Made by a program: the position numbers and the translations under genes
Part shown: positions 9,575-43,612 of the stretch, piece by piece
How the letters are laid out: the number at the start of each line of letters is the position of its first letter
How positions within the stretch are numbered: position 1 is the stretch's first letter
The notes under the pieces: model-generated
Databases searched by the model: none
What the model was told of the DNA's origin: nothing
The model's input: the letters and a program-made list of their open reading frames with translations, nothing else
Assembly: GCF_002222615.2 (NCBI RefSeq)
Contig: NZ_CP022412.2
Location: 2,294,001 to 2,358,000 of the forward strand
Direction of reading: 5' to 3'
DNA: 64,000 bases
DNA from: Bacteroides caccae
GTDB taxonomy: Bacteria; Bacteroidota; Bacteroidia; Bacteroidales; Bacteroidaceae

Positions 9575-10660
9575 TTATCTGTTCCTGTATAATTTTATAA
9601 AGATTCCCAAAGTTGCCAGAATGATTAGTAAGGTAAGCCCGAATGCCCAATAGTTGATAACTCGTGATTCTGCGGTAAGTACATAATTTCCAGTCAGAAG
9701 GCGGAGACCGTCTATTTTCCATACCATTATATTATTGGTTGAAAGACAGGCGTTGGAAGAAAGAAGTGTGCCGGGCATTGTCAACTCAAATTGTATAGCA
9801 TGATAGAATACTTCAGCAATCTTGATTTTCTGTTCGCACATATTGTCCATTGCCTTTGCATGGGCTTTATAAAGTTCCAAGTAATAGTTTGTTTGACCAA
9901 CTTTATCAAAAAGCGCACAGACATCATCTATTCCTGCGTCTCCACAACCGTCTTTCCCTGACAGGTGATTGGTATAGACTGTTTCTTTGAGTTCGTTCAG
10001 GCGATTTACGTAGACCGTGTCACCTTTTTGTGAGGTAAATTGGCGAATGACTTCCCAAATAACTTCGTATTGGCTGCGATTGTACCATTCTCCGAATTTA
10101 GCTTCGAGTTTATCTAGTTTGTCGTTTTGTTCGATGCCGTTCATACCGCTAAAGGCAGCGTTGTCTCCACGAAACCAGATTATTTGTTCTTCTTTATTCA
10201 GATATTTGTCAAGAGGGACTGGTCCTTTGTCCGGAAGTTCTTTATAAGTAGCGGTATATATATAATAGGTATAAAACCATTTAAAACGTTTCTTTAACTG
10301 CTCCGTAGGTATTGCCAAAGAGCTCATCTGTTCTTTTCCATTGGAGATAGAGAAATATTCTCCATTTATCAGGGGAATATTCCGGCAGGCTTTTACATTC
10401 AGTTTTTTTTCTTCTCCCCAGAAATTAAATTTGAGGGTGGAGTCCAGATTTACTATCTGCCAATCGGTATCTAATTGAAACAGAAATGGGTTATGTGTCT
10501 TATCTCCTGCAATGAAAGCGGAATCACCTCGTGCATAGACCTCTCTATGCATACTTCCATTGGTGTCTATCCGTGAAGTCATTCTATAATAAGTACTGCA
10601 CGAAGTCATACCCAGTGACAGTAACAGTAGTAATGTTGCGATTGAATGATTAGTTTTCAT
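9575..10660 (-). CDS. Uncharacterised lipoprotein of an ECF sigma operon
   Basis: The 361-residue protein has a type II signal peptide (MKTNHSIATLLLLLSLGMTSC, lipid Cys21) and a C-terminal membrane helix (WAFGLTLLIILATLGIFIKL) followed by YRNR. It may therefore be tethered at both ends. The middle is mixed alpha/beta with no motif I recognise. It lies 7 bp after a small anti-sigma-like gene, and I infer it is the target or sensor of that ECF system. Confidence 0.65.
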   Translation of the reverse strand: MKTNHSIATLLLLLSLGMTSCSTYYRMTSRIDTNGSMHREVYARGDSAFIAGDKTHNPFLFQLDTDWQIVNLDSTLKFNFWGEEKKLNVKACRNIPLINGEYFSISNGKEQMSSLAIPTEQLKKRFKWFYTYYIYTATYKELPDKGPVPLDKYLNKEEQIIWFRGDNAAFSGMNGIEQNDKLDKLEAKFGEWYNRSQYEVIWEVIRQFTSQKGDTVYVNRLNELKETVYTNHLSGKDGCGDAGIDDVCALFDKVGQTNYYLELYKAHAKAMDNMCEQKIKIAEVFYHAIQFELTMPGTLLSSNACLSTNNIMVWKIDGLRLLTGNYVLTAESRVINYWAFGLTLLIILATLGIFIKLYRNR

Positions 10661-10667
10661 ACTCTGT

Positions 10668-11081
10668 TTATCTTAATTGGTTTTCTTTTATAATTTGAAG
10701 TATTCGCGTCTGCCGGAGTTTCCGGTGCTGCGTGTATTGAGAGGATAGGTAGGTACTTTTCTCCAAGAGTTGCATTTCTTCCCAGTTCTCCGGTAAGGGA
10801 AATGAAGTGCCGTTTGGCTGATAGACATATCCATTTTGCGTTTCTGCTTCGGAAGGGGAGGGAGGAAAACAAACATCGTTTATAAATAAAAAGAGCAATA
10901 ACGTTGCTGCGGTTCCTGATATCCAAGCACCAACGAGATATCTTATCTTTTTCTTTTTAGGAGCGTTATCGGTTATCTTATTCAGAATAGCCGCTGTTAG
11001 TTCTTCTGGATTTTCTAATATGGGTTGTCTGTTTTTGATTTCCGTCAACCATTCTTCGTACTTTTTATCTTCTTGTTTCAT
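10668..11081 (-). CDS. Putative membrane anti-sigma factor
   Basis: This 137-residue protein has a charged cytoplasmic N-terminus (MKQEDKKYEEWLTEIKNRQP), one membrane helix at about 47-68, and a short periplasmic tail. No zinc-binding anti-sigma motif (HxxxCxxC) is present. The role is inferred from topology and from the 4-bp ATGA overlap with the ECF sigma gene upstream. It is much shorter than FecR-type anti-sigma factors. Confidence 0.65.
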   Translation of the reverse strand: MKQEDKKYEEWLTEIKNRQPILENPEELTAAILNKITDNAPKKKKIRYLVGAWISGTAATLLLFLFINDVCFPPSPSEAETQNGYVYQPNGTSFPLPENWEEMQLLEKSTYLSSQYTQHRKLRQTRILQIIKENQLR

Positions 11082-11641
11082 AAGTCGGGGTCTATTTGAT
11101 TCATTTTATTACGTATATTCTTTCGGGCAAGATATAGAGTGCTTTTTATCTTCTCAGGTGATAGGCCTGTGATAGTTTGCACTTCTATGACTTCCAGTTC
11201 TTCTACATCACGCAGCATGAAAACAAGTTTCTGCTGGGGAGGAAGTTCGTTGGTATAGCGCAATATCAATTCTTTCAGTTGCCTGTTGGATAGAGATATT
11301 TCAATATTGTCGTCCGATGCGAGGTTGATAGAATCAGAAAAGGCGAACTCGTTGTTCAAAGACGAATGGCGAAGTGAACGTAAACGGTCATAACACGCGT
11401 TGCAGGTGATTTTATAAAGCCAGGTAGAAAAGCGATTCTTCCGATTATATGTTTTCAAGGATAACCAGACTTTTACAAATGTCTCCTGTGTTATGTCCCT
11501 GGCTTCGTTTTCGTCACAAAGCAACCGGAAGGCAAGCCTGAATACCATTGGCTGAAATTCGGTGACCAACTGGGCAAATGCTGCTGTGTCTTTCCGTTGG
11601 CTCCGGTCTACCAGTTCCAGTGTCTTTTCCTGATTTATCAT
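11078..11641 (-). CDS. ECF RNA polymerase sigma factor
   Basis: The 187-residue protein has sigma region 2 (about 25-95: EARDITQETFVKVWLSLKTY, then RFSTWLYKITCNACYDRLR) and region 4 (about 125-180: PPQQKLVFMLRDVEELEVIE and KSTLYLARKNIRNKM). It has no C-terminal extension. It heads an operon with a membrane anti-sigma candidate and a lipoprotein, typical of envelope-responsive ECF systems. It probably controls its own operon. Confidence 0.9.
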   Translation of the reverse strand: MINQEKTLELVDRSQRKDTAAFAQLVTEFQPMVFRLAFRLLCDENEARDITQETFVKVWLSLKTYNRKNRFSTWLYKITCNACYDRLRSLRHSSLNNEFAFSDSINLASDDNIEISLSNRQLKELILRYTNELPPQQKLVFMLRDVEELEVIEVQTITGLSPEKIKSTLYLARKNIRNKMNQIDPDL

Positions 11642-11717
11642 TGTTTATTCATTCTTGTTTATTATATGATACGCATGAAAATGTTTCTGGTCGTTTGCGA
11701 ATCATCAAATATATAAA

Positions 11718-11753
11718 AAAAGAGGATAGGCTTTTTAAAACCTATCCTCTTTT
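11718..11753 (-). terminator. Terminator of eno
   Basis: AAAAGAGGATAGG (11718-11730) pairs with CCTATCCTCTTTT (11741-11753), 13 bp with a 10-nt loop. It lies 23 bp beyond the eno stop, and A/T runs flank both sides. Confidence 0.85.
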
Positions 11754-11775
11754 ATTTATAAAGTAAAAAGTATGC

Positions 11776-13152
<1,377 letters not shown>

Positions 13153-13236
13153 CTATATGTCGTTAGTCCGATCTTATAATATAACAACGGGACGATGTTT
13201 TTTGTTTGAATGCAGGCGAATGAAATTTGAAGGATT

Positions 13237-13899
13237 TTAGTCTTCGATAATAACACCCAGCAAAGGAAGTAAATCCATAGCTTGTAAGGACGTGATAATA
13301 GCTCCTTTTAGGTCACTGGTATTAAGTGTTATACCGCTGATACGGGAGGTGCGTAGGTCTATTCCCCGGAGTGGGGCGTGTGAGAAGTCGGCTTCCACCA
13401 AATCGCAACTATCAAAAGCGACGGAAGAAAAGCGGCAGTCATTGAAACTCCCGTTTCTGAACAGGCAGTGCGCAAAACGTACCTGGTTCATTTTACTCAT
13501 TGCCAGATTGATGTATCCGGCATTGCACTCGTGTAGCAGAATATGATTCAAAGTGGTTTCCGAAAAATTAGTTCCCAGCAACTTACAGGAAATAAATTCT
13601 ACTCGGTACAAAGAGCTTTCTGCAAAAGAGATATTGGATAGGTCGCAGTTCTCGAACCGGACATCTGTCAGTTGGGATGAATGGAATTTGCATTCGCTGA
13701 ATATCTGATTTTGGAAAGTACAGTTCTTGAAACTTTTATAGGACTTGTTGATTCCTTCTTCTTTTCCTTTGCTAAATAAAAGATCGGAGACTGTTTCTTC
13801 CTTGTCAAGCCATTCTTGTAAAGTGCTTGCACTGGTTTCTTGTTCTTCCATTATTGGAGAAACTACACGGACGGGTTTAGTTGTATTTCTTTTTGTCAT
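13237..13899 (-). CDS. Pentapeptide repeat protein
   Basis: From about residue 55 to 205 this 220-residue protein is a run of A(D/N)LXX-like pentapeptides, e.g. FENCDLSNISFAESSLYRVE and DSCDLVEADFSHAPLRGIDL. This builds a right-handed quadrilateral beta-helix. The charged N-terminus has no signal peptide, so it is cytoplasmic. Some relatives mimic DNA and guard gyrase (Qnr), but nothing here shows that role. It follows crcB by 18 bp and is probably cotranscribed. Confidence 0.85.
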   Translation of the reverse strand: MTKRNTTKPVRVVSPIMEEQETSASTLQEWLDKEETVSDLLFSKGKEEGINKSYKSFKNCTFQNQIFSECKFHSSQLTDVRFENCDLSNISFAESSLYRVEFISCKLLGTNFSETTLNHILLHECNAGYINLAMSKMNQVRFAHCLFRNGSFNDCRFSSVAFDSCDLVEADFSHAPLRGIDLRTSRISGITLNTSDLKGAIITSLQAMDLLPLLGVIIED

Positions 13900-35265: not shown

Positions 35266-35287
35266 ACATACGATGTATAATGTAAGT

Positions 35288-35333
35288 AATTGGGGGAGTA
35301 TTACTTTATATGAATATTCCCCCAATTGCTTTT
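35288..35333 (+). terminator. Terminator of yeiH, left flank of the tubulin island
   Basis: AATTGGGGGAGTATT (35288-35302) pairs with AATATTCCCCCAATT (35313-35327) with one G-T wobble, then a T run. The hairpin beside recA at 43571-43612 is nearly the same sequence. Confidence 0.85.
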
Positions 35334-35412
35334 TAAAACTTCTATTTGAAGTAAAAACAAAACTTTGTACTTATTTGAAATTTTAAAGTGATGTACTAAT
35401 GAAGTCGGGAGA

Positions 35413-35458: not shown

Positions 35459-35573
35459 AGTTATTTATAAGAAAGATAATGGGCAAGAGCATTTTACTAA
35501 GAGTAGTATGGATGCATGATTGAAAAAATATATTTTATAACCTGAAAGAATTCTTTTATTCATTTATTTTTGA

Positions 35574-35581
35574 TATTTTTG
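35574..35581 (+). promoter_or_regulatory. -7 box of the VWA-tubulin-protease operon
   Basis: TATTTTTG fits TAnnTTTG, 30 bp before the first gene. No clear -33 element was seen. Confidence 0.45.
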
Positions 35582-35610: not shown

Positions 35611-37320
35611 ATGAAGAACAATTTCTTTTTTATTCTCTGTATGCTATTTTGCGTACCATTGCACGCCCAACGCGAACGAAACTATATTTATTTATTTGAT
35701 TGTACACAATCAATGAAAACAGTAGACATATGGGAACCGACTAAAAAATATTTGCGGGAAGATATTGAAAGATTATCTCCTTCTTCAACAGTAACTATTG
35801 TTCCATTCCAGGGGATTACTCACCCTACTATTCAGTTTGAATGCAGGAATTTTGATTGGAATAAGATTGAAGAACAATTCAATAAATATATAAAAGATAA
35901 AACGAATACAAATATTTGTTCTGCCTGGGACAAAGGCGTACAATATATTGATGTAAATAAAGACAATTATTTCTATATACTGACGGATGGAGAGGATACG
36001 GTAAAAGGGATTGGAGCCCTTTGTCAACGTATCCGTGAATGGTGTGGTAAATATAAGAATAGTTATGCGTTTTATGTTATGTTAACAGAAAGTGCCAAGA
36101 AAAATGAAAAAGAACTTTCAGATGCTATTGGAATTTGTAGTACTATCCGACTTATTGACCCGAAAGGGCACATCAGTCCCTTTGGAATTTTTGAAGAGGA
36201 AATACTAACTACTAATACATTGGAACTGGAAAAACAGATAAAACTACCGTTCTCTACAGTAGGAAAGTATGACGCGTCTGTCAATTGTAAAGATTCTCTT
36301 TTCGATGTTTCTTTAGTTAGCAATATGATTTCAGATGGTAAGGCTGTATTCAAGATAGATGCAAGAAAACCTAAGCAAGAAATAGCAGCTATACTTAATG
36401 GAAAAGACAGATATGATTTTGAGATAGAAGTGAAAGCTAAGGGAGTAGATATTCTGAATTCTAATCTGACAGTTAATGTCGTGAATAAGCCTGAACGAGT
36501 ACTGACAATGATAGATGAGGAAGAAACTAATATGGGAAAAGCTTCTTATTATCCGACATTTCTCTTTTGGAAAGAAAAAAAACAGGATACTCTCCGTCGT
36601 AATCTCAGTGAAAGTTTTAATCAACCTGCTATTGAGTATGCCTCAAGTGTACGTTTTAAAGTTACGAGCTCAGACGGGGCAAACGACTATCAGATATTAA
36701 TTAATGAAATACCTTGTCCGGAGAATGAGTTTGTTTTTGATGGAAAAACAAATAATAGCATCTTATCCATTATATTCAATAAAAATGCCCGGCAAGGCAA
36801 ACGTTATTTTCTAATTAACCCAATACAAGCAAAAGAGACAGATCGTATCAATAGGATTCCAACAGAACAATATCAGTTATCTGTTCGTGCGGGATATAGT
36901 ATCGATCATAATCCTTTAGCAATAATGTTATCTTGGTTGGTGATACTTTTCATTACTCTATTAATTTTATGGCTTTTCGCAATAAAGATTATGGTATATC
37001 CACGGATAAAACTCGGGCGTATTACTATAACTGAGCCATATTACAAGTCACTGAAAATACATGGGGCGCGAAAGGTTATATTTACTAATAAATTTCAAAA
37101 ACAAAGCTTTTTAAATCGTATGTTAACTGGACGTGTCGTATGTGAGGTAAATGAAATATGGACTAGTACAATGGAGTTGGAGCCATGCAGGAAAGCATTG
37201 AGACCAACAACGAAAGGTAAATATCTGATAACTCCTTTCACTACTAGAATGGAGAAAAATTCTGAATATGAAATTCAGAATATAGATACTAATCAACAGA
37301 TAAAAATAACAATAAATTAA
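35611..37320 (+). CDS. Membrane-anchored VWA-domain protein
   Basis: The 569-residue protein has a signal peptide (MKNNFFFILCMLFCVPLHAQ) and then a VWA domain (about 24-215) with an intact MIDAS: DCTQS at 30-34 (DxTxS), Thr98/Thr100 before the helix, and LTDGED with Asp126. A beta-rich region (220-430) leads to one membrane helix (about 436-460, SWLVILFITLLILWLFAIKI) and a basic cytoplasmic tail of about 108 residues. The predicted topology puts VWA in the periplasm and the tail beside the tubulin-like protein encoded 10 bp downstream. The ligand is unknown. VWA genes neighbour tubulin-like genes in a proposed membrane-remodelling system. Confidence 0.85.
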   Translation: MKNNFFFILCMLFCVPLHAQRERNYIYLFDCTQSMKTVDIWEPTKKYLREDIERLSPSSTVTIVPFQGITHPTIQFECRNFDWNKIEEQFNKYIKDKTNTNICSAWDKGVQYIDVNKDNYFYILTDGEDTVKGIGALCQRIREWCGKYKNSYAFYVMLTESAKKNEKELSDAIGICSTIRLIDPKGHISPFGIFEEEILTTNTLELEKQIKLPFSTVGKYDASVNCKDSLFDVSLVSNMISDGKAVFKIDARKPKQEIAAILNGKDRYDFEIEVKAKGVDILNSNLTVNVVNKPERVLTMIDEEETNMGKASYYPTFLFWKEKKQDTLRRNLSESFNQPAIEYASSVRFKVTSSDGANDYQILINEIPCPENEFVFDGKTNNSILSIIFNKNARQGKRYFLINPIQAKETDRINRIPTEQYQLSVRAGYSIDHNPLAIMLSWLVILFITLLILWLFAIKIMVYPRIKLGRITITEPYYKSLKIHGARKVIFTNKFQKQSFLNRMLTGRVVCEVNEIWTSTMELEPCRKALRPTTKGKYLITPFTTRMEKNSEYEIQNIDTNQQIKITIN

Positions 37321-37330
37321 AATCACAACT

Positions 37331-40072
37331 ATGGCTACTAAAATCAAACGTTGCCTATATATAGGCCTTGGCGGAACAGGTATGAAATCGCTGCTCCATA
37401 CAAAGAAAATGTTTATTGAAACATATGGAGAGGTTCCTCCAATGATCGGTTTCTTAGGCATAGATACTGATGGGGGTGAGTATAAAAAAGAGCTTGATTC
37501 AAAGTATGGAAATGTCGTACTTACACCGAATGAGCAATTGCCCATTAGAGTAGATGAGGCACGTCCTATTTACGAAGTTAATAAAGAACATTTTGCATGG
37601 CTGCCGGAAGAGAATATTTATGCGTTGACATCGATGACTTTGGGAGCCGGACAAATTCGTAGTAACGGCCGTTTTGCAATTACAGTGAATCATACTGAGG
37701 TTGAAAATAAGATTGTTTCAGTATTGACGGACATTACACGTGCTAATATTTCTAATAATGAAAAGTATGAGTTGTTGGCCAATGAGATTGAGGTGCATAT
37801 TGTATTTTCGCTTTGTGGGGGAACAGGCTGTGGCACATTTATTAATATGGCTTATCTCCTTAGAAAATTTGCTCCAAATTGTAAATTGACAGGGTATGGT
37901 GTTCTTCCGGATGTATTTGAGGCTATGTCTAATGCTGGTATGGCAAAAGTCAAACCGAATGCTTATGGAGCCATTCAAGACCTTGATTGGTTGATGCATC
38001 TTCACATGAAAAGTGATAAAATAGCTTTTGATTATATTAACTATATTCAGGAAACGAATGATAGACCTTTCAATGCATTTATTTTTATAGATAACAAAAA
38101 TCCGAATAATGATACATATACTCATATTGATCAGATTGCTGAAATGATCAGTTTGGCTTTGATTACTTCCGCCGGAGAACTCTCTACTACATCTGCCAGT
38201 GTCAGTGACAACCTGGAAAAGAATATACGTGAGGGGTCAATGGATATAGAAAATAAGAAAGCGTGGGCAGCAGGCCTTGGAGTTTGTGAGATTCTATTCA
38301 GAGGACGTGATTTAAGCGAAATATATTCCATTAAGTCGGCCAAAAGATTGATTGAACTGTTGCTTAATTCATGCGTCGATGCAGATACGATTGTCAACCA
38401 GTGGATAGATTCGAAAGATGTTAATATACGTGAGAATAATGGTTTTGACAATGTGATAGACTACATACTCAATAAATCTCCTCGTAGTCCATTTTCTGCG
38501 ATTGACAATCGTGCGAATGCACAAACGGAAGTCGACTTGTTTATCAATAGTGCAATGCCTAAAGAAGGAGAAGTTAATGGAAAAATACAAAGCTTGAGTG
38601 AACGTGTATCTGATGAATTACGCAAGTTGATAGTTAAAGAAATTAATCAAGAATGTGGTATTGGCGCTGCTGAAAGTATTATTTTGGGAATACAAGCACA
38701 AATCAATGTGTTCATGAAAGAAATGAATAGTGAATTGGATGATTTGAGTAACAGAAAGCCGGGTTTGGAAGCAGCAGTAAAAATGGCGGTAAAAGATTTG
38801 AGTGATTATGATTCTAAACTTTTCAAAAACAAAGCAAGAGCCGAGGAGTATTGCGAAGATGTGATAAACGCTGCAACTCAATTAGTCATCAATGAGCGTG
38901 AAATTATTCGGCGAAAAGCTGCAATTACTTTTTATACAGGACTACAAGCCGAATTGCTGGAATATTATACAAGAATATCCAATATAAAAGATATGCTTGT
39001 TGCAATATTCTCTAATTATACTAATCGTTTGGCTGAGATACAAAATAGAGTGGGTAAAGCATCACAAACTTTCCAGATAGATCTTGCTCAATCATTTGTA
39101 AATAAGGTAGTACTTGAAGAAGAGGAGATTCAAGTAGAAGAATTCCTGAAATCATTGATTTATCCGGAAAAAATATATGAGTTCAGCGATAAGCGTACTA
39201 CTGAAATAGAAAAAATATTTCTTGATTATGCTCACACTCTGTCTACTGCACGTGTCTGGGCTAAGACTACTGTCGATGATATAATGAATAAAATGGATGA
39301 AGAATCCTTTACGCATATTTTGAAGATGGCAATTAATAAGTCGGCACCGTTGTTCAGATATAATTATCGTGGATATACTCCACAAGAAAAACCATGTGAT
39401 AGTTATTATATAGGTGTGCCGGATAAGAAAAACTCTCGTTTGGTTGAAGATAACAAACTGAAAAATTTGTTACCTCCTGGAAGTGTCAATTTAGATTTCG
39501 CGAGTATCGGGGTTAAAGATAGAGTTATCATCTATCGCCAAGTCGGTGTAGTACCGGCATATTGCATAACCCCATTACCTTCGTATGAAGAAAAATATAA
39601 TAACTGTAATGCTTGCTGTCATTTTGATGCCATTATTCGAAACAAAATGTTACGCGAAGAATACAATCTTTATCCGAAAGCAGCGATTGACGATACGCTT
39701 GAATTATGGGTGAAAGGGTTCATCTTTGGGCTTATTAAAAATGAAAATGACAAATACTATTATCAAAGTGAAGAGTATGGAGATCCTTTAGATGATAATT
39801 GGGTGGAGTTGTTGAAATATCGTGATGAAGCTTTTGATGCTTTTAAGAGAAGTAAAAATAGTGTTCGTAAGGAATTTAATCAATACTTCGAACAGTTTCA
39901 GAAAACTAAAGGAGCAGAGGCTATGCAAGCTTTAATTGATGACGCTAAACTTTATTATTTTGATAAGTACTCACAAATCAGTTTGACAAAAGAGCAAATT
40001 AAAGCTAAAGGTTTTGAGAGTATCCGTAAATTGATTACTGAAGAACTGGAATACGTAAAGAAAGAATTATGA
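37331..40072 (+). CDS. Tubulin/FtsZ-superfamily protein (Tubulin_2-like)
   Basis: The 913-residue cytoplasmic protein begins with a GTPase domain. YIGLGGTGMKS (10-20) corresponds to the first nucleotide loop, GFLGIDTDGGE (40-50) to the loop after strand 2, and CGGTGCGTF (162-170) to the tubulin signature GGGTG(S/T)G, with Cys replacing the first Gly and the fifth-position residue. The family match is Pfam Tubulin_2 from memory. About 500 extra C-terminal residues follow, including long charged helices (SELDDLSNRKPGLEAAVKMA) likely to be coiled coil. No FtsZ C-terminal peptide was found. It overlaps the protease gene by ATGA. Polymerisation is inferred. Confidence 0.85.
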   Translation: MATKIKRCLYIGLGGTGMKSLLHTKKMFIETYGEVPPMIGFLGIDTDGGEYKKELDSKYGNVVLTPNEQLPIRVDEARPIYEVNKEHFAWLPEENIYALTSMTLGAGQIRSNGRFAITVNHTEVENKIVSVLTDITRANISNNEKYELLANEIEVHIVFSLCGGTGCGTFINMAYLLRKFAPNCKLTGYGVLPDVFEAMSNAGMAKVKPNAYGAIQDLDWLMHLHMKSDKIAFDYINYIQETNDRPFNAFIFIDNKNPNNDTYTHIDQIAEMISLALITSAGELSTTSASVSDNLEKNIREGSMDIENKKAWAAGLGVCEILFRGRDLSEIYSIKSAKRLIELLLNSCVDADTIVNQWIDSKDVNIRENNGFDNVIDYILNKSPRSPFSAIDNRANAQTEVDLFINSAMPKEGEVNGKIQSLSERVSDELRKLIVKEINQECGIGAAESIILGIQAQINVFMKEMNSELDDLSNRKPGLEAAVKMAVKDLSDYDSKLFKNKARAEEYCEDVINAATQLVINEREIIRRKAAITFYTGLQAELLEYYTRISNIKDMLVAIFSNYTNRLAEIQNRVGKASQTFQIDLAQSFVNKVVLEEEEIQVEEFLKSLIYPEKIYEFSDKRTTEIEKIFLDYAHTLSTARVWAKTTVDDIMNKMDEESFTHILKMAINKSAPLFRYNYRGYTPQEKPCDSYYIGVPDKKNSRLVEDNKLKNLLPPGSVNLDFASIGVKDRVIIYRQVGVVPAYCITPLPSYEEKYNNCNACCHFDAIIRNKMLREEYNLYPKAAIDDTLELWVKGFIFGLIKNENDKYYYQSEEYGDPLDDNWVELLKYRDEAFDAFKRSKNSVRKEFNQYFEQFQKTKGAEAMQALIDDAKLYYFDKYSQISLTKEQIKAKGFESIRKLITEELEYVKKEL

Positions 40073-43000
40073 TACACACTGTTCACCTGTTGCTTGGATC
40101 TGAGTTTGAACAATCGGGAATTGATCTGAGGAAGTATATTATAAAATACGGAGAAGGTAACGCTTCTTCGTATTTTACTACGTTGATATGGTCTTTGCAG
40201 AATGACAACTCTATACAGATTGATAGTGCAGAACTTCAGGAATCCAATGAAACCGAAATATTCTATTCAGGATTGGAGAATCTTTACCAGATTAGATTAA
40301 AAGCAGAAAGATGTGTAATAAATGATGAAGAAATAAAACTTTTTTTCTCTGAATTGTATAATAAAACCGTAACAATCAGTAATCCGGGTGATAGTAACAG
40401 TCTACATCTTTGTATCTACTTACCTTTATATGATAAGCAACTGTGGAGTATTGTACAACGAATAGTTAGATTATTGAATGGGGGTATACAGCAACAATAT
40501 ACAATAGATATATTAGGAATAGCAGCGGATATGGCTTTTTTGTTTCTTCCTTCAGAAAAGGCGGACAATCTACAAACTAATCTTCAAATAGCGAAGAAGG
40601 TGGTAGAAGAAATCGTTGCAATGAAAGAGCAAGAAAGGAACTTTGCTCATTTCATTCTCATGCAAAATTGTAATTCTCAAGGTATTGCACTCAATCTTAA
40701 TCATGACGCTTTTATTCGGATTATAGGAGAATTGGCACTCTTATCTATTGAGCATTATACCACTCTATTCCCTGTCACTGAGGATTTTAGTGATCGTAAT
40801 ATTATTACTTTTGGGCTGTCTGTTCTAAATTTTGATAAATATTACTTCGTTCATTATCTAATACGAAGAGCTTATCTATATGTCTTGGAGCGAGAGAAGG
40901 TTATGCAAAAAGAAGTAGACGTTAACAAGGTGTCACAGATAGTGCAAAAACATTTGGAGAACCAAACGCATTTGGTCTCCGATTTTTACCAACAGGAAGT
41001 AGCACCTTTATTGAAAGAAGGGAAGAAGCATGATGATATTATAACAATTATTACGCCCAAATTGGATGAAAAAATAGAGGAATTATCTAAAGAATTTCAG
41101 TCCTTTATTTACGATAAAGACTTGACGCTTCCCGAAAAACAAGCAGCAATGGCTCAATTGTTAGGGGTGGATGATAATCTGCTCAAAGGAAATTTGTTTA
41201 ATAAGCAACAATTGACCATAGATGATTGTGACAGTGAAGCTGCCAATATCTTTATTAGAGAAAACAATAAACTCATTAAACGTTTTACGGACGAAGAAGG
41301 TAAGGAACAGATTATTCCCGCTGTACTAACTACTCCAGAGGATGGCAATAAGGATATTTATCTTCCACTGGGCGAAATTAAAGAATTGCGCGTGAAGATG
41401 CGCGAATCAACGAATTATATCCGACAAAAAAGCAAAGAATTATCTTCTCTCTCTCAGCAATTGGAGAATGAAGAAACGAGTAAGAAGCGTTTAACTGAAA
41501 ACGGGTTTATATACGAAGGTACAGTTTACAAACTGCTTGATATAGAAGAAAAACCATTAACAGAAACTTATCAAAGTCATGCCGTTTCAGAAAAGAATGT
41601 AGATCTTCGATTAGGATTTACTAGTGTTAAGAATCAAGGCAGTCAAGGTAGTTGTTCCGTTTTTTCCATATCTTCCATTTATGAATATATTCTGAAGAAA
41701 AATTCATTTACTGAATATGATTTGAGTGAAGCTTTCGTATACTATAATGTAAGAGAAAAGAACAATAAAGTAATGGAAGATACCGGGAGCTCTTTATATG
41801 AGGTTATAAGCAGTATCATTAAGCAGGGAATCTGTTTGGAAAAGCTATTTCCCTATAAACCGAAAAATTATACAACTAAGCCTGGAATTGAGGCCTATGA
41901 AGATGCGCTTCAAAGACTTATAAAAGAAGCTAAAAATGTAAATCTTACAATAGACGATTTTAAGTCAGCTCTATCTGACGGATATCCCATTGCTGTATCA
42001 ATGAGGATATATGATTCTTTTGGAAATAGTAATTCAGGATTTATATTTCGCCCGACAGAGGCAGAAATAAAGAGTAAGGAATATGGAAATCATGCAATGA
42101 TTGTTTGCGGATATAGTGATGATGAACGTATTTTCATTGTACGTAATTCGTGGGGAAAAGATTTTGGTGATAAGGGATACTGCTATATTCCATATTCTTA
42201 CATAGAAGATACCGAATTGACAAATATGGCTTGTATTATAACGCAGATAAGCAGTGAAGTCAAGGTTGGGGGAATAGCTCAAAAAACAACTGCCTCTTTT
42301 AATAAAACAGACAATAATATCAGGTGTTCTATTATACGTATTCTTATTGATGAAGAGAAACGTTTATTGAATACTTATCAACGTGCATACGCTGAATGTC
42401 GAATCGCTTATGATACATTAATGCAGACTTTGGGGAATAATAGTAACCGGGAACGTATTTATGATATGACTCTTGAGCGTCTGAATGATGAGGTTAATCA
42501 GTTGAATTCGCGGAAAAATCAGTTCATACAGACAGATCGAACAAAAGCTCTTACCGCATACGACGAAACGACTCGTACTTTTGGAATATGGATTGTAGTA
42601 TTAATAGTAATAATGCTACTCTTCTGTGCAAGTACTTTTTATTTCAGCAAGTTTGATGAATGGTTTTCTGATGGGGTTAATTGGGGGATTTTGGTAAGCT
42701 GCCTGCTTCTGTCAGGGCTTCTTTCTCTTTATTTTCCTTACCGGAAGCACTATCGCAGAAAACTGGAACAGGAATTGGCTGAACAGGTTATCAATATTGC
42801 TAATCAGCATCATAAATTACAGAATCAGCAAGATACTCTTCACTTGGAGTTGTATCTTGCAGGAATGGTAATAGATAGATTGGCTACTCTTCAGAGTACA
42901 TTTATGCAACGTTATCAATCGCTAAAATCCTATGTAGGTAATCTTTCTGTTTGGTATGACGAGGAGAGTAAGAAAATAAAGGAGATGAATGTCGCTACAG

Positions 43001-43527
43001 AAGTTCCATTCCTCTCTTTGTTATCAAATGAAGTGCTTGATGCATATTTTGAAAGAGAAAAAAAAACAATAGTGGATGATATTAAATTATATTGCTATTT
43101 TGAAGGATATGATTTGAGTGAAGATACGATCAGAAAATATAAAAATGGTATAAGACAGCAACTGATAGACAAACTTCTCGCTTCTTTAGATGGTTTCACA
43201 GTCTACAACTATATAATGGGAGAAAAAGTATATCCATATTTGGATCCTAAATATGCTGATCCTTCACAATTGTTATTACTTATGGATACTAATTCTGAAG
43301 TCTTTTTGCAAAATGAAAGAAAGGACGTAACAGGGAATACTTCTATTACTCAACATCTATTTATTCATACCGATATGCAAAGTGAACGGATGAAGTGGGA
43401 GCAGATATACCCAAAATATTTTAGAACTAAACCATCATGTGATTCAACAGTATCTATTTTCAATTTAGTTGTTGTTCAAGAAAATCGATTAAATATGAAA
43501 GATATAAAAATGTTGAATTTGGCATAA
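40069..43527 (+). CDS. Membrane protein with an embedded papain-like C1 protease
   Basis: The 1152-residue protein has an uncharacterised N-terminal region (1-500, partly helical), a papain-fold domain (about 508-730) and a C-terminal region with two membrane helices (about 838-858 and 871-890) plus a long coiled tail. Catalytic residues are in place: oxyanion Gln523 and Cys529 in KNQGSQGSCSVFS (six apart, as in papain), His675 in YGNHAMIVCGY, and Asn693 in VRNSWGKDFGDKGY. Papain's Trp after the Cys is Ser, and its disulfide Cys22 is Gln. With no signal peptide, both ends and the protease should be cytoplasmic. It probably cleaves or remodels a partner; the substrate is unknown. Confidence 0.85.
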   Translation: MIHTVHLLLGSEFEQSGIDLRKYIIKYGEGNASSYFTTLIWSLQNDNSIQIDSAELQESNETEIFYSGLENLYQIRLKAERCVINDEEIKLFFSELYNKTVTISNPGDSNSLHLCIYLPLYDKQLWSIVQRIVRLLNGGIQQQYTIDILGIAADMAFLFLPSEKADNLQTNLQIAKKVVEEIVAMKEQERNFAHFILMQNCNSQGIALNLNHDAFIRIIGELALLSIEHYTTLFPVTEDFSDRNIITFGLSVLNFDKYYFVHYLIRRAYLYVLEREKVMQKEVDVNKVSQIVQKHLENQTHLVSDFYQQEVAPLLKEGKKHDDIITIITPKLDEKIEELSKEFQSFIYDKDLTLPEKQAAMAQLLGVDDNLLKGNLFNKQQLTIDDCDSEAANIFIRENNKLIKRFTDEEGKEQIIPAVLTTPEDGNKDIYLPLGEIKELRVKMRESTNYIRQKSKELSSLSQQLENEETSKKRLTENGFIYEGTVYKLLDIEEKPLTETYQSHAVSEKNVDLRLGFTSVKNQGSQGSCSVFSISSIYEYILKKNSFTEYDLSEAFVYYNVREKNNKVMEDTGSSLYEVISSIIKQGICLEKLFPYKPKNYTTKPGIEAYEDALQRLIKEAKNVNLTIDDFKSALSDGYPIAVSMRIYDSFGNSNSGFIFRPTEAEIKSKEYGNHAMIVCGYSDDERIFIVRNSWGKDFGDKGYCYIPYSYIEDTELTNMACIITQISSEVKVGGIAQKTTASFNKTDNNIRCSIIRILIDEEKRLLNTYQRAYAECRIAYDTLMQTLGNNSNRERIYDMTLERLNDEVNQLNSRKNQFIQTDRTKALTAYDETTRTFGIWIVVLIVIMLLFCASTFYFSKFDEWFSDGVNWGILVSCLLLSGLLSLYFPYRKHYRRKLEQELAEQVINIANQHHKLQNQQDTLHLELYLAGMVIDRLATLQSTFMQRYQSLKSYVGNLSVWYDEESKKIKEMNVATEVPFLSLLSNEVLDAYFEREKKTIVDDIKLYCYFEGYDLSEDTIRKYKNGIRQQLIDKLLASLDGFTVYNYIMGEKVYPYLDPKYADPSQLLLLMDTNSEVFLQNERKDVTGNTSITQHLFIHTDMQSERMKWEQIYPKYFRTKPSCDSTVSIFNLVVVQENRLNMKDIKMLNLA

Positions 43528-43570: not shown

Positions 43571-43612
43571 AACTGGGGGAATATCGTTTTTTATACGAAT
43601 ATTCCCCCAGTT
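43571..43612. terminator. Bidirectional terminator of the island and recA, right flank
   Basis: AACTGGGGGAATAT (43571-43584) pairs perfectly with 43599-43612 over 14 bp, with T-rich loop sequence. It is almost the same as the hairpin at 35288-35327. Confidence 0.85.

Follow-up and report, generated by a model that had tools for sequence, protein, structure and literature searches.

An operon of Bacteroides caccae that joins an FtsZl1-type tubulin to VWA and papain-domain membrane proteins

Proteins of the FtsZl1 (Tubulin_2) family encoded in operons with VWA genes were proposed to act in membrane remodelling (Makarova and Koonin 2010, PMC2875224). A VWA gene lies in the same operon in the majority of the FtsZl1 operons published there, and Bacteroides caccae belongs to the Figure 1 set of that study. 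Here, we describe a three-gene operon from a 64,000-nucleotide stretch of the B. caccae genome (the window; contig NZ_CP022412.2, positions 2,294,001 to 2,358,000), which encodes a VWA protein, a Tubulin_2 protein and, as a third component, a large membrane protein with a papain domain. The operon resembles those published in 2010 in combining a Tubulin_2 protein with a VWA gene, a pairing that a preliminary description of this DNA had named correctly. The main text of the 2010 study never mentions papain, peptidase or protease; its additional files may list an unnamed partner family.

Tubulin and vWA proteins also occur together in GTPase-centric conflict systems with GAP1-N2 (eLife 2020, PMC7159879), across which peptidases recur. 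These systems share with the operon a tubulin, a membrane vWA protein and a predicted regulated assembly near the membrane, but they centre on a TRAFAC GTPase and GAP1, neither of which is encoded in the operon; nor was any GTPase found among the ten genes scanned around it. Their tubulin-containing members are given as Firmicutes and Actinobacteria, and no papain-tubulin operon was found in the text of that paper on these systems. Another point of contact are the Hma (DUF499-centred) systems related to bacteriophage exclusion (BREX; PMC12839542): on one Meiothermus plasmid (L101), a triad of VWA, tubulin and third gene stands after HmaABC and directly before brxL, whereas the text of the paper contains no occurrence of tubulin and a scan of ten genes around the window operon detected no Hma or brxL gene. 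The FtsZl1-VWA pair and tubulin-vWA conflict systems of different make-up are known already. Neither the papain partner, which had been put forward as undescribed, nor a brxL linkage of FtsZl1 was found in the open-access literature searched, which did not cover the additional files of 2010; the papain partner and the linkage to brxL and HmaABC in Thermales are new within that scope. The literature found reports no tested function for FtsZl1 proteins, which were predicted in 2010.

The operon is composed of the following parts (window coordinates):

35611..37320, + strand: VWA protein of 569 amino acids, with a signal peptide, a predicted periplasmic VWA domain with complete metal-ion-dependent adhesion site (MIDAS), a membrane helix and a predicted cytoplasmic end of ~100 amino acids
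36907..37014, + strand: membrane helix region of the VWA protein (residues 433-468, by hydropathy)
37331..40072, + strand: Tubulin_2 (FtsZl1-type) protein of 913 amino acids, with a PF13809 match
37814..37834, + strand: nucleotide-binding loop CGGTGCG of the tubulin (residues 162-168), with residues 163-166 and 168 conserved in the alignment
40069..43527, + strand: papain-domain membrane protein of 1152 amino acids, identified by profile, residues and AlphaFold2 model
40069..41343, + strand: N-terminal alpha/beta region of the papain protein (residues 1-425, AlphaFold2 model)
41584..42258, + strand: papain domain (residues about 506-730, with Q523, C529, H675 and N693)
42565..42741, + strand: two-helix membrane hairpin of the papain protein (residues 833-891), with an acidic loop and a basic exit

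The open reading frame coordinates bear out the tight packing reported initially, with a 10-bp gap between the first two genes and a 4-bp ATGA overlap between the last two (35611-43527, all on the + strand). A pattern-based scan with gene 3 through 84,980 species, each represented by one genome, yielded 64 loci. Among these, 47 (L002-L048) carry the long papain protein or a piece of one, and 17 (L049-L065) show the papain part only, with no VWA or tubulin match in the stretch fetched. All three families were found in the same order in 41 of the 47 papain-type loci, so that the homologues do adjoin each other in other genomes, against the refuting outcome named in the preliminary description; the remaining six are cut by a contig end, inside the operon or, for L024, 174 bp past a partial tubulin frame. 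The gap between the tubulin and papain genes ranges from -17 to 145 bp across 44 loci. All but one of the 47 loci come from records titled with Bacteroidales taxa, including two Candidatus names that we take to belong to this order. The remaining locus (L043), from a metagenome-assembled genome (MAG) titled Planctomycetaceae, carries its papain gene, of Bacteroidales type, on a contig of 5 kb, and its assignment is probably a binning error. For conservation and distances, tubulin and papain proteins were included from 850 amino acids and 250 bits upwards, and for distances VWA proteins from 480 amino acids upwards.

The 913-residue protein was placed in the tubulin superfamily, as originally claimed, by its match to Tubulin_2 (PF13809; E=5.6e-47, 161.2 bits at a curated cut-off of 27). 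It has no membrane helix by hydropathy. Glycines 12, 14, 15, 17, 163, 164, 166 and 168 as well as Thr165 are kept in 46/46 proteins. The core GGTGxG of the published loop GGGTG(S/T)G is likewise present in all 46, with the first Gly replaced by Cys, Ala or Ser in 44 of them and the S/T position occupied by Cys in the window protein. FtsZl1 proteins are described with a coiled coil and a helical C-terminal domain; in this respect, residues 422-575 gave only weak matches, to DUF507, sigma-1 and a Rab effector chain (E 0.065 to 0.98). The genome (one contig, 4.57 Mb), whose closest named relatives are B. ovatus and Bacteroides sp., also encodes a conventional FtsZ (TIGR00065, 349.5 bits, above cut-off), which rules out the operon tubulin as the division FtsZ.

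The complete papain triad attributed to gene 3 was confirmed. Its product matches Peptidase_C1 (PF00112; E=8.7e-20, above cut-off), and profile, fold and Gln-Cys-His-Asn residues all place it in papain family C1. Q523, C529, H675 and N693 are invariant in a 24-row alignment and kept in 48, 47, 48 and 48 of 48 full-length proteins (>900 amino acids and >300 bits), respectively, the sole exception being a Ser at the catalytic Cys in L047 (Alistipes timonensis MAG, 10001-13258), otherwise a long papain protein. The AlphaFold2 model has a mean predicted local distance difference test score (pLDDT) of 84.4 and a predicted template modelling score (pTM) of 0.65, and a structure search with it returned a match list filled with papain entries. 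By hydropathy, membrane helices span residues 833-863 and 869-891; both follow the papain domain in the chain, and this domain is predicted to face the cytoplasm. Known C1 peptidases are mostly secreted or lysosomal; unlike xylellain (3ois) and other members of this family, the domain sits here inside a large membrane protein, at a predicted cytoplasmic position. No second copy of residues 1-425 was found in the genome, and a comparison of this region, considered as a second tubulin, with the tubulin alignment by profile gave nothing.

The first gene had been described as encoding a VWA protein with a signal peptide and a C-terminal membrane helix. The signal peptide and the helix (residues 433-468) are present; the helix is not terminal, as about 100 residues follow it. 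In the profile searches suggested at the time, the Tubulin_2 and Peptidase_C1 assignments held, whereas the window VWA protein had no Pfam VWA match (PF00092/PF13519) of its own. It is nevertheless classed as VWA-like by motif and relatives, because some relatives do match PF00092/PF13519, a B. ovatus protein 87% identical to it is named vWA, and the MIDAS residues D30, S34, T100 and D126 are kept in 42/42 N-terminal VWA rows, window included (with Thr or Ser at position 32). The VWA domain is predicted to be periplasmic and the ~100 residues after the helix to be cytoplasmic.

The nearest tubulins found outside the Bacteroidota lie on four Thermales plasmids, next to a third gene and brxL, with the VWA gene kept on three of them. 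On plasmids of Thermus oshimai, Allomeiothermus silvanus and Meiothermus taiwanensis, vWA, a tubulin-like gene and a third gene for a 677-686-amino-acid product are followed by brxL, which in A. silvanus comes behind an insertion sequence (IS) transposase. T. thermophilus SNM3-3 retains only the tubulin end behind a transposase, followed by the third gene and brxL; the annotation includes no VWA gene, and type I-C CRISPR genes adjoin. In the T. thermophilus plasmid record (L106, 8815-14477), the tubulin is truncated behind the transposase and the third gene and brxL are annotated whole. On the Meiothermus plasmid L101, HmaA, HmaB and HmaC (PADLOC, E=0) lie upstream of the triad in the same orientation, separated from it by one ATPase gene.

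A tubulin tree was calculated from 42 chosen rows, six of which have long branches and unsure places. The tree places the Thermales tubulins with the Bacteroidales triad (94/89), and its papain group (91/88) includes the second tubulin of L067 (genome G105); both support values lie slightly under the threshold of the tool. Because the papain-less L068 and L073 branch outside the papain group and the Thermales proteins go with the triad, we read the tree as suggesting a single papain acquisition in Bacteroidales. The papain group brings together hosts of different families, in keeping with horizontal transfer. Locus L067 (522-12916, one strand) comprises two VWA-type genes, a tubulin, a papain protein, a 343-amino-acid membrane protein and the second tubulin.

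The operon forms a low-GC cassette between yeiH, the gene of a YeiH-type protein (PF03601), and recA, the gene of RecA, and has the appearance of a foreign insert: its three genes have a GC content of 34-36%, compared to 41-46% in 11 other window genes. The yeiH-recA spacing was compared in 17 genus members besides the window. It measures 8.4 kb in the window but 137 bp (G142) and 125 bp (G121) in the two genomes with 99% identical RecA, 0.26 to 4.9 kb in eleven other genus members and about 21 kb in G131; the remaining three show a YeiH-like match of no more than 30-32% identity. Matches to the tubulin profile were obtained in 4 of 80 genus genomes (window, G103, G105 and G124), and the three-gene papain type is found in only 3 of these 80: the window, G103 with the whole triad and G105 with the triad plus a second tubulin. 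The third gene of G124 lacks papain. In larger samples, this profile matched 2/101 genomes of the family (one weakly) and 4/296 of the phylum (three partial), and Tubulin_2 was present in 14/295 genomes of the order (10 above cut-off). The cassette is apparently mobile and horizontally exchanged. Carriage as phage or prophage cargo was rejected, as a phage collection gave one distant match (24.8% identity) and a pattern-based scan of viral contigs none.

With moderate confidence, we propose that the operon encodes a membrane protease complex that is scaffolded by the tubulin, gated by a signal and employed in conflict or defence. In this model, a self-contained, horizontally exchanged cassette would build an inner-membrane signalling complex, in which the periplasmic VWA domain may bind a ligand or sense an envelope event and pass this on to the cytoplasm by way of its helix. 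The tubulin-like GTPase would then assemble or change state at the membrane and thereby cluster or open the cytoplasm-facing papain domain, which would be zymogen-like at rest. Once released, the papain domain could cleave host or invader proteins, so that the infection is stopped or the cell killed. A role in defence, first raised as a guess, gains indirect support from the Thermales relatives, which adjoin brxL and, in one case, HmaABC. More doubtful is the fuller version, an immune platform in which a VWA-gated tubulin scaffold activates the papain protease and which would have arisen when an older module of VWA, tubulin and third gene, in Thermales still set among BREX-related defence genes, gained a papain domain in Bacteroidales and began to spread there as a stand-alone cassette. 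If defence is the function, a tubulin-type scaffold would control a protease in bacterial immunity, a logic that resembles caspase activation on a platform. In any case, a stand-alone cassette of three genes and about 8 kb with a Cys-dependent output offers a simple route to the function of the FtsZl1 branch, and the Thermales linkage provides an independent second test system.

Several observations weigh against the defence proposal. The link to defence genes stems from four related Thermales plasmids; the third gene on them, considered as a homologue of the papain protein, has no detectable similarity to it. Annotations around the other Tubulin_2 plasmid genes name no recognised defence system (11 of 15 records inspected, one without annotation, leaving out H17, H18, H19 and H21; PADLOC covered the Meiothermus record only). 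None of the three operon proteins matches a PADLOC model, which rules out a defence system known to PADLOC, and the ten genes flanking the window operon have housekeeping or unknown roles and offer no defence context; PADLOC gave only generic AAA cross-matches of ClpB there. A PADLOC scan (threshold 1e-8, without a control set) was extended to 126 of 192 neighbours of the Bacteroidales loci (at most 3 kb away and at least 120 amino acids), hand-picked and omitting most of the longest ones and a few others. Among the best 25 of 104 models listed, including PDC-S02, AriA, pVip and mad8, none occurred in more than three members. A defence-island context in Bacteroidales is thus not supported by the scans of neighbours at the window or the other loci. 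Finally, proteolysis appears not to be universal among these loci, because L047 has Ser at the catalytic Cys and the third genes of L068 and L073 have no papain match. The L073 product shows a weak similarity to the papain protein (12.9 bits; E 2.6e-5 among 11 proteins, 0.011 among all open reading frames), that of L068 no usable signal, and profile comparisons with both were not significant.

The main rival to defence, unlikely on balance, is a membrane remodelling device, in which a tubulin-like polymer controlled by the VWA protein would give the inner membrane or vesicles their shape, while parts of the complex would be turned over by the papain protein. It agrees with the published prediction for the FtsZl1 family (PMC2875224), with the membrane anchors assigned by hydropathy to both the VWA and papain proteins, and with the canonical FtsZ, which calls for a non-division role. 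The lack of defence genes next to the window operon and of any outstanding defence model at the other Bacteroidales loci, within the best 25 of 104 models, points the same way. However, the operon is rare, patchy within the genus and inserted at an otherwise closed site, which is unusual for a cell-architecture device, and its Thermales relatives adjoin defence genes.

Improbable is a role in peptide or protein processing, with the papain protein maturing a product, the tubulin organising the machinery and neighbours supplying the substrate. Genes for a His-Xaa-Ser-rich protein and radical SAM proteins do follow the operon in L012 (15031-18256), and members of their families are found in L014 and L022, but in only those few of 47 loci; the next genes in the window are yeiH-like and recA, so that no substrate or exporter adjoins the operon. 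We rate equally low a function in envelope stress or inter-bacterial antagonism, in which the VWA domain would sense a toxin or damage to the envelope, and cleavage of a regulator or membrane protein by the protease would adjust the envelope, with no role against phages. Many loci stem from gut and rumen samples, judged by record titles, and the pairing of a periplasmic VWA domain with a cytoplasmic protease resembles the logic of regulated proteolysis. Nuclease aside, however, no neighbour family recurs beyond a few Bacteroidales loci, a minority of these families being annotated individually, so that no dedicated regulator is apparent. Mere chance adjacency of three genes without a joint function, with no point in its favour, is practically nil, as it is contradicted by the conserved order in 41/47 loci and the short gaps.

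The nuclease is probably neighbour family F3, found in the flanks of 10 of the 47 papain-type loci: nine members lie downstream in the same orientation and no more than 5 kb away (four of them within 10 bp), and one lies upstream on the other strand. Endonuclease_NS matches 9 of the 126 scanned neighbours, which equals the number of F3 members in that set, although membership was identified individually only through L007. The density of the family in the order, 64 matches across 99 genomes whose rounded sizes add up to about 344 Mb, leads to an expectation of about 0.1; the loci are related and not independent. The window operon has no F3/Endonuclease_NS neighbour.

Further features lie at the edges of the cassette:

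35284..35331, strand not assigned: terminator-like hairpin, upstream cassette boundary after yeiH (fold of 35280-35345, -27.1 kcal/mol)
35565..35581, + strand: two adjacent TATTTTTG motifs, candidate Bacteroides -7 element
43571..43612, strand not assigned: terminator-like hairpin with 14-bp perfect arms, downstream cassette boundary

The upstream hairpin is imperfect and was not reported by a scan for perfect arms of at least 9 bp with loops of at most 14; by eye, it resembles the lone yeiH-recA hairpin of the relative G142. Two similar hairpins bracket the cassette where G142 has one. The two motifs were found by a motif scan, by itself no evidence of function, with TAnnTTTG taken as the consensus of the Bacteroides -7 element.

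Other tubulins also stand next to protease genes. In L069 and L075, Bacteroidales loci of another tubulin branch, a 797-amino-acid tubulin adjoins a trypsin-like peptidase gene, a separate tubulin-protease combination that in L069 comes with a gene having a weak VWA_2 match. The Tubulin_2 gene of the Azospirillum plasmid L102 adjoins caspase family annotations, one of them matching PF00656. On a plasmid of Deinococcus sp. QL22 (L110, 343-12680), AAA ATPase and DUF2357 genes lie upstream of the Tubulin_2 gene, which is followed by MotA/TolQ/ExbB and OmpA genes that we take to be similar to the ZorA-ZorB pair of Zorya.
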